A program made the position numbers and the translations under genes. A DNA stretch of 64,000 bases from Bacillus cereus (GTDB lineage Bacteria > Bacillota > Bacilli > Bacillales > Bacillaceae_G), in NCBI RefSeq assembly GCF_002584535.1, contig NZ_NUOT01000069.1:5706-69705 (forward strand), given 5' to 3'. Shown piece by piece: positions 35,288 through 41,526 of the stretch (its first letter is position 1; each line of letters starts with the position of its first letter). The notes under the pieces were generated by a model. That model was not told where the DNA came from. It saw nothing but the letters and a program-made list of their open reading frames with translations, and did not search any database.

Positions 35288-35959
35288 TTATATCATTTGC
35301 TCAAAGGAAACTTTACGAATAAGTATACTACTAACTATGATATAGACTACAGTTAATCCCATTGAAATCATAATAAAATATGGTACGTCTATTAAGGTTT
35401 CACTATTTATAAACATGAAACTTCTTATCCCTACTTCTCCATAGAGCACACTCGTTACCCCTAAGAAAATCGTCCCCCCTACAGCAAGACCAATCCACTG
35501 AAATCGTTGTTTAAAAATAACTACTACTTGAAAAAAACTCGCTATTGTAACGTAGAATAAAAACTGTGCAAAAAATCCCCCTAGTGAATGCCCCCCTATA
35601 CGAGCGCTTTCTGAACTATATACTATATTCTGTAAAAAAATCAATTGAAGAGATGAAAATACTGCGGCTTGTAATGTTATATAACAAACTGCCCCAACAA
35701 AAAATTGTAGTCTTGTTACCCCAAACGAAACAACTAAACGAAATACTTCATCCTGTATAATAAAAGTGCTTACTACTATAAAAAATGTAATTGCAATCGA
35801 AGGATTATTTAAAATATCCTGTAAAAATCCTACTTTTATTCCGTTTAAATCCGCTGCACTCGTTGTTCCTTTTATAAGTAACGCCACAATCCAAAATATA
35901 AGAATCGCTTTGTAATGAAATTTCATATGTAACTTCAATTGTTTCATTAGCATCATCAT
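35288..35959 (-). CDS. ABC transporter membrane subunit
   Basis: The 223-residue protein has six hydrophobic segments (LIFWIVALLIKG, AITFFIVVSTFIIQDEV, FGVTRLQFFVGAVCYITL and others), the layout of YtrC/YtrD-like or YhcI-like ABC-2 permeases. FRLVVSFGVTRLQFF is a plausible coupling region. It overlaps the ATPase stop by four bases and completes the GntR-ATPase-permease operon. It pumps an unknown substrate, most likely a cell-wall-active compound by analogy with the B. subtilis ytr operon. Confidence 0.8.
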   Translation of the reverse strand: MMMLMKQLKLHMKFHYKAILIFWIVALLIKGTTSAADLNGIKVGFLQDILNNPSIAITFFIVVSTFIIQDEVFRLVVSFGVTRLQFFVGAVCYITLQAAVFSSLQLIFLQNIVYSSESARIGGHSLGGFFAQFLFYVTIASFFQVVVIFKQRFQWIGLAVGGTIFLGVTSVLYGEVGIRSFMFINSETLIDVPYFIMISMGLTVVYIIVSSILIRKVSFEQMI

Positions 35960-36834
35960 TTCACCTCATCATCTGTTATATAAATAAATAGTTTTTGTAG
36001 TGTTACGCTATCAATTTCTAATCCTTCTTTTTCAATAAATTGATAATCTTTAGTAGAAAACCCCTCCCATATAACAGCAATCTCCTTATTTCCATATACC
36101 TCTCGATGTACAACGTTTTTATTTATTAGAAATTCATCCACTTTATCTTTTCGGCCTGATATGCAATAGGCTTCCTGTAATAAATCTTCAACGGCTGATT
36201 GAACAACTACTTCTCCTCCTTTCAAAATCAGCACATCTTCCACAATATGCGCTACTTCTTCTACTAAGTGCGTTGATAAAATAATTGTTCGAGGGTGATT
36301 ACCATAGTCTTCTAACAACATATTGTAAAATAATTCTCGGTGCGCCGCATCTAAACCGGTAGTCGGCTCATCAAAAATTGTAATAGGTGCCCTACTTACT
36401 AATCCCTTAATAATTCCAACAACATTCTGCATACCATGCGATAATTTATGATATTTTTCTTGTACATTAAGCCCAAATTTCCTCGTAAGTTCTTCAGCAT
36501 AGGCTTGGTCCCAATTTTTATAAAACATGTTACATAGATTAAAAATCTCTTTCACCTTATAGTTTAAATAAACTTCTTCTTTCACTTTTACAAAACAAAT
36601 ATTTTGCAGCGCTTTCCTATTTTCAAAAACATTTTCATCAAATACGGATACACTTCCACTACTTGAAACGATCTGTCCAGAAAGAAGATGTAATAATGTC
36701 GTTTTCCCCGCCCCATTTCTACCGAGCAAACCGTATATTTTATGTTTTTCCATCGAAATCGTTACTGCATTTACAGCCGCTTTTCCCCTATATTTTTTCG
36801 ATAAGTCTTTTGTTTCGAATGCAATCATGGTCAT
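35956..36834 (-). CDS. ABC transporter ATP-binding protein
   Basis: The 292-residue ATPase has Walker A GLLGRNGAGKTTLLHLL (near residue 38), the Q-loop region NICFVKVKEEVY, a degenerate signature KLSHGMQNVVGIIKGL (LSHGM in place of LSGGQ), Walker B ITIFDEPTTGLD and the switch ILSTHLVEEV. It is typical of YtrB-like ATPases. It overlaps the GntR gene by four bases and the permease by four bases, so all three are translationally coupled. Confidence 0.9.
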   Translation of the reverse strand: MTMIAFETKDLSKKYRGKAAVNAVTISMEKHKIYGLLGRNGAGKTTLLHLLSGQIVSSSGSVSVFDENVFENRKALQNICFVKVKEEVYLNYKVKEIFNLCNMFYKNWDQAYAEELTRKFGLNVQEKYHKLSHGMQNVVGIIKGLVSRAPITIFDEPTTGLDAAHRELFYNMLLEDYGNHPRTIILSTHLVEEVAHIVEDVLILKGGEVVVQSAVEDLLQEAYCISGRKDKVDEFLINKNVVHREVYGNKEIAVIWEGFSTKDYQFIEKEGLEIDSVTLQKLFIYITDDEVK

Positions 36835-37205
36835 TCCCCCTCCTTCGTAATTTTTCGAATCATATTCATTAATTCTTCTTTTGAAATTTCAAGAACTTTT
36901 GCTTCTTCCCACACTTTAGGTAAAAATTCAGTCATAAAAGCATTTTGCCGTTTTTTTAATACAACTTCTTTTGCTCCCTTTGTAACAAACATTCCAATCC
37001 CTCTTTTTTTATATAAGATCCCTTCATCCACTAGTAAATTTACCCCTTTCGCTGCTGTAGCTGGATTGATTTGTAACATCTTAGCAAATTGATTTGTCGA
37101 TGGGACTTGTTCTTCTTCAAGCAATATCCCCTTTAAAATATCAGCCTCAATTGTTTCCGCAATTTGTATGTATATTAACTTGTTCTGCTCAAGTGTTGGT
37201 TTCAC
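36831..37205 (-). CDS. GntR family (YtrA subfamily) repressor
   Basis: The 124-residue protein starts with a GTG after AAGGTGG. Residues 10-75 are the GntR winged helix (YIQIAETIEADILKGILLEE then QVPSTNQFAKMLQINPATAAKG), and the short C-terminal part (about 45 residues) is typical of the YtrA subfamily, which dimerises without a ligand-binding domain. It almost surely represses its own operon with the ABC genes. The B. subtilis counterpart responds to cell-wall antibiotics. Confidence 0.9.
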   Translation of the reverse strand: MKPTLEQNKLIYIQIAETIEADILKGILLEEEQVPSTNQFAKMLQINPATAAKGVNLLVDEGILYKKRGIGMFVTKGAKEVVLKKRQNAFMTEFLPKVWEEAKVLEISKEELMNMIRKITKEGE

Positions 37206-37306
37206 GTTTTCACCACCTTAGGTTCATAGGTTCATTACTTATGTAATTAACCATATCACAGGAATATAGATTCATTCAATATTTTCCCATAATTTATTTC
37301 AAAAAA

Positions 37307-37338
37307 AGAAGTATCACACCTTACAGGATGATACTTCT
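37307..37338 (-). terminator. Terminator of the DinB-like gene
   Basis: AGAAGTATCA and TGATACTTCT form a 10-bp stem with a 12-nt loop, followed by TTTTTTT on the minus strand. Confidence 0.8.
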
Positions 37339-37349
37339 CTAAAAACTAT

Positions 37350-37841
37350 TTATAAAACGGTTGTATTTTCTATACATGCTTTCAAGTTCTTTTCATTTAA
37401 ACCATTTTGACAGAAATTCAGCTTCATTCCCTTTAATAATTTTGTACGATCTACCACTTGTCCTAAATGATAACCTGTATGTTCCACTAAATGAAACAGA
37501 TCATGCATGTCTATCCTACTCATTTCCTTACAAGCTTTAACATAACTTTTTTCCCATTCATCAAATGTCCTCTGTACAGTTTCACATAACATTTTTGGAC
37601 TCAATTGCACAATCGGAAAGTATTCTTCAATCCCATTTTCAAAATGTATATTTGGATTCGAATAACGGCTACTATTCCTTTTTATATGCTCACAAATATG
37701 TAATACGATGCCACCAATTGAATTCGCTGAATCCTCTTGCTTCCATAATTCTTCTGCATGTAAGTGCCCAATTGTTTGAATTAGTTTAGATAAATAATGG
37801 TCGTACATTCGATGATAGGCAATCTTATAAAACAGCTCCAT
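37350..37841 (-). CDS. DinB-like four-helix protein
   Basis: The 163-residue protein has the DinB/YfiT architecture: an initial helix (YDHYLSKLIQTIGHL), a conserved His in GGIVLHICEHIKRN near residue 50, and the C-terminal HLVEHTGYHLGQVVDR with the second and third metal-binding His near 120-125. It is intact. Members are putative metal-dependent thiol transferases or are of unknown function. It is one of three DinB-like genes in the window. GGAGGGAG precedes the ATG. Confidence 0.8.
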   Translation of the reverse strand: MELFYKIAYHRMYDHYLSKLIQTIGHLHAEELWKQEDSANSIGGIVLHICEHIKRNSSRYSNPNIHFENGIEEYFPIVQLSPKMLCETVQRTFDEWEKSYVKACKEMSRIDMHDLFHLVEHTGYHLGQVVDRTKLLKGMKLNFCQNGLNEKNLKACIENTTVL

Positions 37842-37989
37842 CTTTCTCTCCCTCCTGTCTCTTGATGAAAAAGATATGATCCTCTAAAATTGACTGATTT
37901 ATCTCATCTCTAAATCCTATCATGAATCATACAATTCCTTTCAAAAATATACGCACTTTAATCAAAATTAAAAATTTTCATTTTTTATG

Positions 37990-38018
37990 TTTACAATTAT
38001 CCATTAATTGTATATACT
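37990..38018 (+). promoter_or_regulatory. Probable sigma-A promoter of the yrzI array
   Basis: TTTACA, a 17-bp spacer and TATACT lie 42 bp upstream of the leader ORF. It is the only good promoter I find for the array, so all small genes may share one transcript. Confidence 0.6.
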
Positions 38019-38059
38019 TACTAACGTAAGAAAAAAATTCTAAAAGGAGGTCGAATGAA

Positions 38060-38134
38060 ATGATGAAATTAAAATTACATGTTGCACCTGTTTTACAATT
38101 AAATATTAGTTCGACCACCCTAATGGAGAATTGA
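38060..38134 (+). CDS. 24-residue leader ORF of the yrzI array
   Basis: After AAGGAGG an ATG ATG pair opens a short frame beginning MMKLKLHVAPVLQLN and ending STTLMEN. The Shine-Dalgarno segment (GGTCGAA, 38049-38055) is complementary to TTCGACC (38110-38116) inside the frame, so ribosome entry could be controlled by RNA folding. A two-codon frame (ATG AAA TGA) precedes it and overlaps. It may be a leader peptide or simply the first small gene. It is not YrzI-like. Confidence 0.5.
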   Translation: MMKLKLHVAPVLQLNISSTTLMEN

Positions 38135-38168
38135 AAATCGTTCGATATTTTCTTTAATTAACACATTC

Positions 38169-38204
38169 GCCACAGGAGGTCGTATGCTTACCTGTGGCTT
38201 TTTC
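38169..38204 (+). terminator. Terminator-like hairpin 1 in the yrzI leader
   Basis: GCCACAGG and CCTGTGGC pair perfectly (8 bp, 14-nt loop) and are followed by TTTTTC. Together with the next hairpin it separates the leader ORF from the yrzI genes. Confidence 0.75.
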
Positions 38205-38211
38205 ATGCCCT

Positions 38212-38246
38212 GCCACAGGAGAACCGTATCCTTCTGTGGCTTTTTT
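38212..38246 (+). terminator. Terminator-like hairpin 2 in the yrzI leader
   Basis: GCCACAGGAG and CTTCTGTGGC pair over 10 bp (one G-T) and are followed by TTTTTT. Its left arm repeats that of hairpin 1, so alternative pairings between the two are possible, as in attenuators. Confidence 0.75.
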
Positions 38247-38300
38247 GTGCGATCTTTTAAATCTCTGACACCATTTCTTTAAGAAAGGAGCAAATATTCA

Positions 38301-38441
38301 ATGACTTTTCACGTACTGTTTTTCAGTATTACAATTCAACGAAAGCAATTATCTGAAGTCGAAATTGTGCATGATCAACACATTCAAAAAGCTATGAGTG
38401 ATATAAAGGAGCGTCAAAGTCCTTACAGTAGTCACCTGTAA
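38301..38441 (+). CDS. YrzI family small protein, copy 1
   Basis: A 46-residue product starts MTFHVLFFSITIQRKQLSE, has a charged middle (HDQHIQKAMSDIKERQ) and ends SPYSSHL. This is the YrzI pattern: a short hydrophobic N-terminal strand or helix of about 12 residues followed by an amphipathic charged helix. AAAGGAG lies 11 bases before the ATG. It is the first of five tandem copies. The function of YrzI is unknown; in B. subtilis the yrzI transcript, which also codes for several short peptides, is a target of the ribosome-associated nuclease Rae1. Confidence 0.8.
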   Translation: MTFHVLFFSITIQRKQLSEVEIVHDQHIQKAMSDIKERQSPYSSHL

Positions 38442-38468
38442 TTCCTTTACGAAAGGAGGAATTCGTTA

Positions 38469-38612
38469 ATGACTTTTCACATTTTCTTTTTTACGATTAC
38501 TCTTCAAAAAAAATCTTTATCTGAAACTGATATTTTACGTAAACAACAATTAAAAGAGATTATGGACGAAGTAAAAGATCGCAAGAGTTCTTATTATAAT
38601 CAAATGTATTAA
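38469..38612 (+). CDS. YrzI family small protein, copy 2
   Basis: The 47-residue product begins MTFHIFFFTITLQKKSLSE, followed by a charged helix (RKQQLKEIMDEVKDRK) and SSYYNQMY. The N-terminal hydrophobic block is the most aromatic of the array. AAAGGAGGAA precedes the ATG, only 27 bp after copy 1. The sequence before it (ATTCCTTTACGAAAGGAGGAATTC) recurs before copy 5, showing duplication of whole gene-plus-leader units. Confidence 0.8.
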   Translation: MTFHIFFFTITLQKKSLSETDILRKQQLKEIMDEVKDRKSSYYNQMY

Positions 38613-38642
38613 AAAATAATTTTCAAAAGGAGCAATCATCTT

Positions 38643-38786
38643 ATGAAATTTCGTGTATTCTTTTTAACCATTACCATTCATAAAAATCAATTTTCTGAAA
38701 CTGAGATTTCACATGAACAGCAGATTCAAAAAATGATAAACGAAACAAAAGAACGTCAAGTTTCTTATTACAATCATATGTACTAA
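38643..38786 (+). CDS. YrzI family small protein, copy 3
   Basis: The 47-residue product begins MKFRVFFLTITIHKNQFSE, continues with an acidic-basic helix (SHEQQIQKMINETKERQ) and ends VSYYNHMY. Its C-terminus matches copy 2 and its N-terminus copies 4 and 5. AAAGGAG is correctly spaced before the ATG. Confidence 0.8.
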   Translation: MKFRVFFLTITIHKNQFSETEISHEQQIQKMINETKERQVSYYNHMY

Positions 38787-38815
38787 AAACTCATATAAAT
38801 AGGAGGATTTACCTG

Positions 38816-38956
38816 ATGAAATTCCAAGTATTCTTTTTAACTATCACAATTCACAAAAACAAAGTTTCTGAGTTCGAAATGTTACACGAACAACAAATTC
38901 AACACGCTATGAATGAAGTGAAAGAACGGCAACTTCCTTATTGCAGTCACCTATAA
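38816..38956 (+). CDS. YrzI family small protein, copy 4
   Basis: The 46-residue product begins MKFQVFFLTITIHKNKVSE, with a helix (LHEQQIQHAMNEVKERQ) and the end LPYCSHL, which pairs with the SPYSSHL end of copy 1. TAGGAGG precedes the ATG. It is the only copy with a Cys. Confidence 0.8.
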   Translation: MKFQVFFLTITIHKNKVSEFEMLHEQQIQHAMNEVKERQLPYCSHL

Positions 38957-38983
38957 TTCCTTTACGAAAGGAGGAATTCATTT

Positions 38984-39124
38984 ATGAAATTTCATGTATT
39001 CTTTTTAACGATTACGATTCAAAAGAAGCGATTAACTGAAGCTGAAATTGTACAAAAAGAGCAATATAAAAAAGTTTCTGATGAAATTCGAGATCGTAGA
39101 AGCAAGTATTATACACATCTATAA
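38984..39124 (+). CDS. YrzI family small protein, copy 5
   Basis: The 46-residue product begins MKFHVFFLTITIQKKRLTE, with a helix (VQKEQYKKVSDEIRDRRS) and the end KYYTHL. It is the most basic and most diverged of the five in its second half. AAAGGAGG precedes the ATG. Confidence 0.8.
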   Translation: MKFHVFFLTITIQKKRLTEAEIVQKEQYKKVSDEIRDRRSKYYTHL

Positions 39125-39162
39125 TGATGCAAATTTAAATATTATAAAAGGAGTGAATTAAG

Positions 39163-39219
39163 ATGTTAATGGCGCGGTGTAAAAAAATGATTTGGATTAT
39201 TGAGAGGGATTCCACATAG
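39163..39219 (+). CDS. 18-residue ORF closing the yrzI array
   Basis: After AAAAGGAG an ATG opens 18 codons reading MLMARCKKMIWIIERDST. It is not YrzI-like but has a proper Shine-Dalgarno and lies 38 bp after copy 5 with the terminator downstream. B. subtilis carries comparable short peptides in the yrzI transcript. Whether it is translated is open. Confidence 0.45.
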   Translation: MLMARCKKMIWIIERDST

Positions 39220-39272
39220 TTCGTTAACCTTTAAAAGGCCATATACTTCAAATAAGTATGCAAAAATCATAC

Positions 39273-39316
39273 AATAAAAACGGCTAATTACATCTTAAAA
39301 ACTAGGCGTTTTTATT
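39273..39316 (+). terminator. Terminator of the yrzI array
   Basis: AATAAAAACG and CGTTTTTATT form a 10-bp stem with a long loop and a T-run. Confidence 0.65.
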
Positions 39317-39406
39317 ATTATTTATATGTGTAAATTAACTTTAATCGTTATATATAACAAGGCAGCAATCCCCCTTCTTCAAATCTTTTTACATCACAAT
39401 CAAAAA

Positions 39407-39437
39407 AAGATACATTGCTAAAAAGCAATGTATCTTT
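39407..39437 (-). terminator. Terminator of the AI-2E gene
   Basis: AAAGATACATTGCT and AGCAATGTATCTTT form a perfect 14-bp stem with a 3-nt loop and a T-run on the minus strand. Confidence 0.85.
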
Positions 39438-39458
39438 CTTGATTCTTATGAATTCTTT

Positions 39459-40544
39459 TTATTTCCGATTATTTCTTTTCATCTTAATCAATCTCACCAA
39501 GTTTGAAACAATCGTTTTCGTCACAGCGTAAACTGGTACTGCTAAAATCATTCCAATAATACCAGCGAAATTACCTACACCAAGGATTAACACAATGATT
39601 GTTAAAGGGTGTATATTTAATTTCGAACTCATAATACGCGGTGAAATAATATTACTTTCAAATTGCTGTACAATTGTTACGATACCAATTACCCAAACAG
39701 CTTGCATGGGCGATACAAATAATCCAACAATTACAGCTGGTGCCGCTCCAATAAATGGCCCTAAGTTCGGAATAATATTAGTAAATGCCGCTATAATCCC
39801 TAAAACGAAAGCATACGGCAAATCAATAATTATATATCCTACAAATGTAAATGCACCGACAAATAAACAAACGAGCGCTTGTCCCTGGATATAGGCAGAC
39901 AACGTTTCGCCTGTTTCTTTTATAATATGAAGTCCTTCTTCACGATACGATTCTGGTAAAAAACCAACAGCTTTCCTTGGGAATGCATGACCATCTTTAA
40001 ACATATAAAACAAAATAAACGGTACTGTAAAAATTACTAATGCAACGTTTGTAATAATACCAAACAAAGCCGTTGCACTCGACGTGATTGTATTTGGTAT
40101 TTCTTTCAAATACTCCATTACATTTTTTTCAATCGTTTCAATTGATACATAATTTTGTGTAGCTAACCATTCAAATAGCCTATGATGAGATAATTCTTGT
40201 ATGTATACTTTTCCCTCTTTGATATATGTTGGCATATTTTTCACTAAATCCATCAGCTGCTGTGAAATCGTCGGAACGACTACACCAATTGAGACTGCAG
40301 TTAGTGTAATGATAAAAACATATAACAACAATATCGCTAAATTTCTAGGAACCTTTTTCCCTTCTAAAAACACTAAAATGGGATTAAATATAAAGTATAA
40401 AAACAAAGCGATTAAAATTGGGAAAAATAAAGTTGAAATGAATATACCAATGGGTTGAAATAAAAATGATATTTTTGTGCAAATAAATATAATCCCTACA
40501 ACCATTAGCACTTCCAATGTCCAAAAGTGCACTTTCAATTTCAA
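39459..40544 (-). CDS. AI-2E (PerM) family transporter
   Basis: The 361-residue protein has seven to eight membrane helices and the AI-2E/PerM signatures ALFLYFIFNPILVFLEGKKV near residue 45, PNLGPFIGAAPAVIVG and QQFESNIISPRIMSSKLNIHP near 290. Members are proposed exporters; some act as Na+/H+ antiporters, and AI-2 export was proposed for one E. coli member. The start is a TTG after AAGGAGGC. Substrate unknown. Confidence 0.88.
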   Translation of the reverse strand: MKLKVHFWTLEVLMVVGIIFICTKISFLFQPIGIFISTLFFPILIALFLYFIFNPILVFLEGKKVPRNLAILLLYVFIITLTAVSIGVVVPTISQQLMDLVKNMPTYIKEGKVYIQELSHHRLFEWLATQNYVSIETIEKNVMEYLKEIPNTITSSATALFGIITNVALVIFTVPFILFYMFKDGHAFPRKAVGFLPESYREEGLHIIKETGETLSAYIQGQALVCLFVGAFTFVGYIIIDLPYAFVLGIIAAFTNIIPNLGPFIGAAPAVIVGLFVSPMQAVWVIGIVTIVQQFESNIISPRIMSSKLNIHPLTIIVLILGVGNFAGIIGMILAVPVYAVTKTIVSNLVRLIKMKRNNRK

Positions 40545-40695
40545 AAAAACAGCCTCCTTTAAATTAGCACTTCACTTTATTGTATCAAAACACTCATGAA
40601 TTTTATACTCTATTTTCATCTTCAATGTTCCAAAATACTAATAAATACACTACAATAAGAATACATACAAATTTTCAGGGTAAAAGGTGATAAAT

Positions 40696-41526
40696 ATGAC
40701 GCAATGTATCATTTGCAGAAAAGAAACGAAAGAACTTAGTGAACAACATGTTGTCCCAGAGATTTTATGTGGATATTATTTTACAAATTTAATTTGTGAT
40801 ACTTGTTATGAGCATCTCACAACAAACGTAGACCGACCATTAATCAGGCATAAACTAATCCAATACAAAATCGAACAAATGAAGCAACAAATTGATTCTC
40901 CTCTTTATACGAATGAATATGGTCAAAAATTAGCGGCAGCGGAAACGGAAGAAGTTGAAACGAACGGCGAAGTATATTATTCTAATGCGTTAATTATGAA
41001 ACTATGTAAAAAACATGATATTTCACTACATAATGAAATTTGGAAAGAAGAACGTGTAACGAAAGTAGCAAGCTCCATTCAACGTGAATTACTTTTAGAT
41101 AACCGTAAATATAAAATGAGTATCTTAAAAATGGCTTATATATTCGCAGTACATACAATTGACGGTTATTTTAATGATCCTGATGCGATTGATATTTCTA
41201 CTATTATATCTAATGTTGACTTTATCGAATTAAAAGAACGAAGCATTGTTCGTGATTTAAGTAAAAGCTCATTGTGGAATACCCTCAATACGACTAGCGA
41301 TAACCATTACTTTATTTTATTAAGTGATAAAGATGGTCTATTCTGCTTTATTCGCCTATTTGATATTTTCGATGTTGTTGTCCATCTTTCTCGAAAAAAA
41401 TATCAACTTCCATCTCCAATTGTTGGAGTGAATGATGTAGAAAAGCAAGAATTCTATATTGAGAATTTAAAACAATACATGGATCAATTATTTAAACAAA
41501 AGAGTACACAAACGACTCGCGTTTAA
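40696..41526 (+). CDS. HNH-like zinc-finger endonuclease family protein
   Basis: The ATG at 40696 is eight bases from AAAAGG (an upstream GTG overlaps that site), giving 276 residues. The N-terminus has a Cys4-type HNH pattern: MTQCIICRKETKELSEQHVV then PEILCGYY and ICDTCYEHL, with CxxC, His-Val-Val-Pro and CxxC. The remainder is helical with no known domain (KMSILKMAYIFAVHTIDGYF, ending QKSTQTTRV). Such proteins are putative nucleases. It is monocistronic; no restriction partner is adjacent. Confidence 0.75.
   Translation: MTQCIICRKETKELSEQHVVPEILCGYYFTNLICDTCYEHLTTNVDRPLIRHKLIQYKIEQMKQQIDSPLYTNEYGQKLAAAETEEVETNGEVYYSNALIMKLCKKHDISLHNEIWKEERVTKVASSIQRELLLDNRKYKMSILKMAYIFAVHTIDGYFNDPDAIDISTIISNVDFIELKERSIVRDLSKSSLWNTLNTTSDNHYFILLSDKDGLFCFIRLFDIFDVVVHLSRKKYQLPSPIVGVNDVEKQEFYIENLKQYMDQLFKQKSTQTTRV

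Follow-up and report, generated by a model that had tools for sequence, protein, structure and literature searches.

A five-copy yrzI array in Bacillus cereus lies between an attenuator-like leader and a short ORF resembling S1025

A 64,000-nucleotide (nt) stretch of Bacillus cereus DNA (contig NZ_NUOT01000069.1, positions 5,706 to 69,705 of the forward strand; called the window here) contains five tandem open reading frames (ORFs) of the YrzI small-protein family. They are preceded by a leader whose layout is that of a ribosome-controlled transcription attenuator, namely an ORF with a Shine-Dalgarno sequence (SD), a terminator and mutually exclusive pairings, and are followed by a short ORF that is, by position and sequence, a likely counterpart of B. 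subtilis S1025. We consider it probable that the array serves as payload in a translation-stress operon, switched on by the attenuator and off by a Rae1-type site. New to us are the relay-type leader and the codon-frozen 3′ site that bracket the array, and not the array itself. A previous, sequence-only reading of the window had let the array begin at 38055; the first YrzI ORF starts at 38301, and 38055 falls at a 24-codon leader ORF with two terminators beyond it, neither of which had been described. This leader ORF and the tandem terminators are better evidence of translation-linked control than is the expansion of the array.

The window was compared with 144 other loci, giving 145 distinct YrzI loci. 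Searches with PF09501 covered 299 genomes of the class and 397 of the order, both samples of larger groups, and gave matches in 39 and in 193 of them, or in at least 211 different genomes; loci were used from 142 better-scoring ones, two genomes giving two loci each. From 167 loci, 21 exact duplicates were dropped, one (L001, Weissella) was unused and one (L012, with a stop codon inside its match) had no profile match; loci added later (L168–L198) were left out of the counts. The comparison collection seems to be without B. cereus-group genomes. YrzI copies were counted with our own YrzI profile, which gave two copies in one genome (G410) where the genome search gave three. All shuffled controls preserve single-base composition only.

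Leader ORF, promoter and tandem terminators

A leader ORF with a strong SD was found 90–420 nt ahead of the first YrzI ORF in 134 of the 145 loci, and these 134 were used for the leader tests. Applied to the reverse strand, to sequence lying further upstream and to shuffled sequence, the same rule gave 5, 11 and 3.2 picks; when AGGAGG was required, leader ORFs were found in 106 loci and the three controls fell to 5, 1 and 0.6. Across 44 genomes that carry YrzI loci, 32 matches to the leader pattern were obtained, never more than one per genome and each at yrzI; the reversed control matched twice. A sigma-A-type promoter precedes the leader ORF, matched at 10 or more of 12 positions in 118 of the 134 loci (mean best match 10.2, against 7.9 in shuffles), with a median of 40 nt from the end of its −10 element to the leader ATG. 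That the array has a single promoter, as had been supposed, was not demonstrable from the window alone (nine promoter-like sites, against 8.0 in shuffles); the site ahead of the leader ORF does keep its position across the loci.

The leader peptide sequence was not conserved across loci. TCGACC or TCGGCC was present in 98 of the 134 leader ORFs (1.7 expected by shuffling), spread over all three frames (49, 19 and 30) and ending 16–20 nt (interquartile range) before the leader stop codon. Since the motif occupies all three frames, the sequence carrying it (region 2) is taken for an RNA signal and not a peptide, and a conserved stalling leader peptide was ruled out on the same ground. The motif is complementary to an extension of the leader SD, GGTCGAA (region 1), and the variants of the two regions covary (GGCTGAA with TTCAGCC, and GGTTGAAC with GTTCAACC). 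When the SD arms were redealt among loci, the observed complementarity of regions 1 and 2 was reached in 0 of 2000 trials, both for all 134 leaders and for the 46 variants.

Two terminators were found between the leader stop codon and the first YrzI ORF in 92 of the 134 loci, at least one in 124 and a single one in 26, against a mean of 0.03 in shuffled stretches. The 93 loci having a 3′ ORF carried two terminators in 68 cases, one in 20, three in 3 and none in 2; for the 41 loci lacking it these numbers were 24, 6, 3 and 8. We number the arms of terminator 1 (T1) 3 and 4 and those of terminator 2 (T2) 5 and 6. The T1 tests covered the 91 leader loci that also had a 3′ ORF and at least one terminator. 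Region 2 paired with the 5′ arm and loop of T1 at a mean z of −2.44 (91 loci, 73% below −1.6) and with T2 at a mean z of −0.15 (71 loci, 3% below −1.6). A swap test was carried out on 57 representatives (less than 85% alike) of the 98 loci with at least two terminators, L021 having an overlapping pair of calls. The pairings 1:2, 2:3, 3:4, 4:5 and 5:6 were each reached in 0 of 500 permutations, while the control pairings 2:5 and 1:3 were reached in 392 and 394 of 500 and that between the two terminator 5′ arms was borderline (25 of 500).

Folding of the transcript at the stage when the 3′ arm of T1 is not yet made gave the 2:3 pairing (at least 6 pairs) in 85 of the 91 loci with region 1 masked, and the 1:2 pairing (at least 6 pairs) in 73 of 91 with region 1 present. 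In the window, 2:3 formed 15 pairs with region 1 masked (−14.5 kcal/mol) and none without masking, when 7 pairs of 1:2 were formed.

From this leader anatomy the following course may be proposed. RNA polymerase would start just past 38018 and transcribe the leader ORF. With no ribosome loaded, region 1, which includes the SD, would pair with region 2 near the end of the ORF and T1 would form; ribosomes at the leader stop codon would cover region 2 and T1 would form as well. A ribosome stalled early in the leader would cover region 1, and region 2, left free, would pair with the T1 5′ arm. The T1 3′ arm, released in turn, could pair with the 5′ arm of T2, so that one event could undo both terminators and let the polymerase through to the YrzI genes.

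It is rather doubtful that the two terminators are separate gates, with T1 alone controlled by ribosomes and T2 answering to Rho, NusG pausing or some other signal, or leaking a fixed share of transcripts. The preference of region 2 for T1 over T2 and the leaders with a single terminator fit such an arrangement; the locus-specific complementarity of the T1 3′ arm and the T2 5′ arm, which could disarm T2, speaks against it, and a duplication of T1 would give the same complementarity.

The 3′ ORF and its frozen codon

Behind the array, short ORFs were sought by the rule that they start with ATG, have 14–30 codons, end in D[STQ]x and begin no more than 75 nt past the last YrzI stop codon; Asp at the fourth-last codon is demanded by this rule and hence is not a finding. 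Such an ORF was present in 101 of the 145 loci, also in those with a single YrzI copy, and had 17–22 codons in 90 of the 101. Ten control windows gave 0, 2, 0, 0, 0, 0, 1, 0, 0 and 0, and 50 shuffles gave a mean of 0.4 and a maximum of 2.

The commonest ending of the 3′ ORF was V-E-K-D-S-T-stop. Among 92 distinct 3′ ORFs, the sixth-last codon (stop counted) was Glu in 62, and it was GAG in all 62, which are related sequences and not independent. Elsewhere GAG made up 155 of 744 Glu codons (21%) in the accompanying YrzI genes and 18 of 35 in the bodies of the short ORFs. The adjoining codons varied synonymously (42 AAG and 28 AAA; 64 GAT and 28 GAC). The frozen GAG thus seems to reflect a constraint on the nucleotides themselves within a reading frame. 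In 37 genomes, mostly picked for having the 3′ ORF, GTGGAGAARGAYWCNRC matched 27 times, at most once per genome and always at yrzI, and its reversed control occurred 5 times. The site in the window, GAG AGG GAT TCC, is the rarer Arg version.

S1025 encodes 17 amino acids and is cleaved close to its Glu-Lys codons, and the B. subtilis yrzI operon with S1024, S1025 and S1026 is said to have been described as a target of Rae1/YacP by Leroy in 2017. Two loci with a two-copy layout, L015 and L016, which we take to be of the B. subtilis group, have the 3′ ORFs MMIQMKLRMHLNVEKDSD and MMIQMKLRMHLNVEKDTA, ending in NVEKDSD or NVEKDTA, and these endings fit S1025. Seven candidate targets of Rae1, a ribosome-associated nuclease, are known in B. 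subtilis and include S1024, S1025, S1026 and yrzI, S1025 being the first characterised substrate (PMC10632193, PMC11780869; papers given by PMC number are cited throughout from excerpts). The link to Rae1 drawn by the sequence-only reading thus stands as to the territory, with yrzI and S1025 among the candidates, and is not supported for the expanded array itself as a target. Nor does the suggestion hold that the array titrates Rae1: the site lies in a separate ORF and is also present with a single YrzI copy.

The 3′ ORF would place GAG-AAR-GAY (GAG-AGG-GAT in the window) in the decoding path of the ribosome, where an enzyme, presumably Rae1, would cut, and the mRNA would be destroyed once ribosomes translate the S1025-like ORF normally. 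An improbable alternative is that the ORF is kept as a stalling peptide, with EKDST at the stop codon, and that Rae1 is incidental. Its C-terminal amino acids are indeed conserved along with the nucleotides; a peptide would, however, allow GAA, which was found in 0 of 62, while the Lys and Asp codons vary synonymously.

Other short ORFs were noted close by. A second ORF of 17–21 codons (e.g. MLSFRVLLLTMFFKKKS) lies just past the S1025-like ORF in L054 (4716–4769), L082 (4297) and L053 (4497), and is possibly a counterpart of S1024. Behind the S1025-like ORF of L048 (~5242), L049 (4936), L050 (4721), L054 (4946) and L087 (4488) there is a hydrophobic ORF of 25–26 codons with its own SD, reading roughly MFxMVxxLVxxxxIxxIIxxEVSVE, which was not seen in the window.

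Combining both ends, we tentatively propose a two-sided gauge of ribosome load, in which a six-segment relay and a codon-frozen (GAG|AAR) self-destruct ORF would give a pulse of YrzI peptide until translation recovers, with the payload multiplied in several Bacillales lineages.

Several observations weigh against the translation-stress operon as the explanation. With the T1 3′ arm not yet made, 2:3 pairing was still found in 58 of the 91 loci with region 1 present, which slightly lowered our confidence. Once T1 was complete, 24 of 91 loci retained 2:3; the window, whose T1 hairpin is at −16.6, was not one of them. In whole leaders at equilibrium it was found in 15 of 68 loci whether or not region 1 was masked, and the lowest-energy fold of the window fuses T1 and T2 into one long hairpin. 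The antiterminator thus usually loses at equilibrium, so the ON state, if real, needs co-transcriptional kinetic folding; equilibrium folding was dropped as a test of the switch, the ON state not being favoured there. The 4:5 complementarity, expected too if T2 is a plain duplicate of T1, is suggestive rather than proof. The leader ORF was not found in 11 of the 145 loci, 6 of the 134 picks end within 50 nt of YrzI, unlike the others, and an exact 1:2 match of at least 5 nt was missing in 29 of the 134 leaders, the 46 variants accounting for 23 of these. By our rule, 44 of the 145 loci have no 3′ ORF. Rae1 (PF05991) was present in 79 of 80 genomes, with or without the 3′ ORF, which made its presence or absence uninformative as a test, and one genome (G668) has the 3′ ORF and no PF05991 match. 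The swap and codon statistics are inflated by kinship among the loci.

The YrzI array, its peptides and its surroundings

The coordinates of the unit are collected in Table 1. Much of what had been read from the letters of the array was borne out: five YrzI-family ORFs of 46–47 codons with strong SDs and gaps of 27–30 nt (27, 30, 29 and 27 nt, each with an SD of AAGGAG or AGGAGG type), the N-terminal pattern in five of five copies, and C-terminal ends matching in pairs (copies 1 and 4, copies 2 and 3). All five scored above the curated thresholds of PF09501 (23 bits; E 3.6e-18 to 8.8e-21) and of TIGR02413 (E 3.6e-20 to 1.5e-22), with matches near full length, and their amino-acid identity was 41–67%. 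The common leader sequence proposed for copies 2 and 5 amounts to 26 nt, counted from the stop codons of copies 1 and 4, that are identical, and the duplication of a whole unit is apparent in a 300-nt block (38286–38585 and 38801–39100) that is 72% alike.

Table 1. Features of the yrzI unit in the window
Feature	Position	Strand	Size	Remarks
Sigma-A-type promoter	37990..38018	+		TTTACA-17-TATACT, 10/12; position conserved across loci
Leader Shine-Dalgarno (AAGGAGG) and region 1 (AAGGAGGTCGAA)	38044..38055	+		Complementary to region 2; compensatory variants elsewhere
Leader ORF	38060..38134	+	24 codons	MMKLKLHVAPVLQLNISSTTLMEN; strong SD
Region 2 (TTCGACCACCC...)	38110..38134	+		Pairs with region 1 or with the terminator 1 5′ arm
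Terminator 1 (segments 3:4)	38169..38203	+		5′ side carries AGGAGGTCG; T-tract
Terminator 2 (segments 5:6)	38212..38246	+		T-tract
YrzI copy 1	38301..38441	+	46 aa	
Spacer hairpin	38442..38468	+	9-bp stem	Pairs the SD of copy 2; directly 3′ of copy 1 stop codon
YrzI copy 2	38469..38612	+	47 aa	
YrzI copy 3	38643..38786	+	47 aa	
YrzI copy 4	38816..38956	+	46 aa	
Second spacer hairpin	38957..38983	+		Pairs SD; ahead of copy 5
YrzI copy 5	38984..39124	+	46 aa	
S1025-like ORF	39163..39219	+	18 codons	MLMARCKKMIWIIERDST; behind the array, with SD; GAG AGG GAT TCC at 39202–39213
Terminator of the whole unit	39273..39316	+		z −2.91; 3 of 200 shuffles fold equally well

The two spacer hairpins had folding z values of −1.45 and −0.94, neither significant singly, but the hairpin occurs twice; no hairpin signal was obtained in the spacers ahead of copies 3 and 4 (z 0.11 each). 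The hairpins may couple translation of copy 1 to copy 2 and of copy 4 to copy 5.

Selection on the copies, which the sequence-only reading had argued from their intact frames, was supported by dN/dS values (NG86) below 0.5, and not near 1, in all ten pairs (dN 0.21–0.42; dS 0.84–2.9, near saturation). The YrzI peptides thus appear to be under purifying selection, and so we take the proteins to be the output of the operon.

Across the loci the unit recurs in the order promoter, leader ORF (mostly 22–34 codons), usually two terminators, one to five YrzI ORFs and a short ORF ending ..EKDST. One YrzI copy was counted in 111 of the 145 loci, two in 24, three in 4, four in 3 and five in 3, the window included; with 34 loci carrying tandem copies, the array is an ordinary habit of the family. 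In these 34 arrays, 26 of 86 copies scored had their closest relative inside their own array, including all five of the window, a figure that is biased there by missing close relatives. Near-identical copies (0.96–0.98 identity) stand beside diverged ones in the arrays of L050, L048 and L054, and duplication or conversion seems to be continuing in several lineages.

The 197 YrzI copies share roughly the pattern M-T-(L/I/F)-N-(L/I)-(L/F)-F-F-T-I-T-I-x-K-R followed by a charged stretch. AlphaFold2 predicted one helix (residues 2–45) for the five copies of the window (mean pLDDT 77.8, pTM 0.38). They are most likely membrane- or ribosome-associated stress peptides, and this is the weakest step of our explanation.

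That they are instead toxin-like small membrane-active peptides, silenced by both the attenuator and Rae1, seems unlikely. A hydrophobic N-terminal stretch followed by charged residues, the single predicted helix and silencing at two levels, which suits a harmful product, would agree with it, and so would an antisense promoter-like site, the best of the region (TTAACA-17-TATAAT, 11/12; 39169–39141, minus strand), which points into the array. The apolar stretch is, however, some 10 residues long, which is little for a membrane-spanning segment, no toxin family was among the Pfam, NCBIfam or Rfam matches, and the antisense site was unconserved across the 145 loci, antisense RNA not being otherwise sought. 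A conserved antisense promoter behind the array was ruled out (mean match 7.7, against 7.8 in shuffles; 3 of 145 loci reach 10).

Least of all do we favour an ordinary paralog array, formed by unequal crossing-over, with a plain double terminator and incidental short ORFs: tandem copies are common and NCBIfam types TIGR02413 as 'paralog', but the leader ORF, the three-frame motif, the locus-specific helices and the codon-frozen 3′ ORF are also seen where YrzI is single-copy, no match to the exact leader and 3′ patterns was found away from yrzI in the genomes searched, and T1 and T2 cannot act as terminators of the upstream gene in the window, which is divergent.

The neighbours of the unit differ between lineages, so the unit is seemingly not tied to them: by eye, what we take to be genes for a glutaredoxin-like protein and a CggR-like regulator are found at L081 and L085, a flavodoxin/quinone-reductase-like gene at L056 and an ArsR-like regulator at L076–L078. 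Near the array of the window, a GntR-like regulator, an ABC ATPase and a membrane protein lie in series on the minus strand (35288–37205), ordinary in look by eye. On the plus strand (40687–41526), a 279-aa ORF with CIICRKETKELSEQHVVPE...CDTCYEH, an HNH-like arrangement by eye, stands beside an AI-2E-type gene. A scan with the flanking AI-2E-type protein gave the Weissella homolog (L001) only and no B. cereus-group relative, and scans of genome and viral contig collections with the YrzI alignment gave no confirmed related locus. A tblastn search with copy 5 gave no match in plasmids or phages, and blastn with the YrzI unit gave none in plasmids; 24 kb of the window matched no plasmid, and Rfam had no match to 37000–40000 up to E 1.

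Relation to known systems

Several published observations bear on yrzI. In B. subtilis it is among the luciferase reporters listed for inhibition of protein synthesis (PMC7604286), and its mRNA goes up on depletion of tRNA maturases (PMC10100781). Between yrzI and yrhG, an Hfq-associated RNA of 234 nt has been annotated (PMC3574147), which, being of about the right size, may be the terminated leader. For B. licheniformis a 301-nt untranslated region (UTR) element is listed for yrzI, which we take for a 5′ one (PMC3871023). The gene also changes in sigW (PMC3498285) and yhfW (PMC7317962) mutants, neither of which is plainly linked to translation. No attenuator at yrzI was reported in the literature searched on yrzI and its families, and papers beyond those searched may hold one.

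If the proposed relay is correct, named base pairs would explain why yrzI reports inhibition of protein synthesis in B. subtilis, and the signal is predicted to be slow elongation and not lost initiation. The 62 3′ ORFs in which Glu is never GAA would give an evolution-derived codon signature for recognition by Rae1, which bears on how an A-site nuclease chooses its targets.

The likeness of the window to the YrzI family (PF09501, TIGR02413) consists in near-full-length matches and in the tandem copies found elsewhere; it differs in having five diverged copies in one operon. With the B. subtilis yrzI operon it shares YrzI gene(s) followed by a short ORF, and differs in the five copies and in ERDST (GAG AGG) instead of EKDS (GAG AAR). 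The uORF attenuator of the S. meliloti DUF1127 gene (PMC12218461) likewise controls a small-protein gene, pairs the ribosome-binding site with uORF codons and responds to impaired translation. It differs in that the codons lie at the start of the uORF and that their accessibility promotes attenuation, and no kinship is claimed. The bmrB-bmrCD attenuator of B. subtilis resembles the yrzI leader in its translated leader, its terminator and antiterminator, and the read-through favoured by a stalled ribosome (PMC4191407). Its authors propose an antiterminator less favourable than the terminator, as at the yrzI leader, but the bmrB terminator lies inside the ORF, whereas those of yrzI are usually two, lie outside it and possibly form a relay. 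Since the list of Rae1 candidates includes bmrC and bmrD as well (PMC10632193), yrzI and bmrCD may share a common design for Rae1 target operons, in which a ribosome-controlled attenuator would turn expression on and ribosome-linked cleavage would turn it off.

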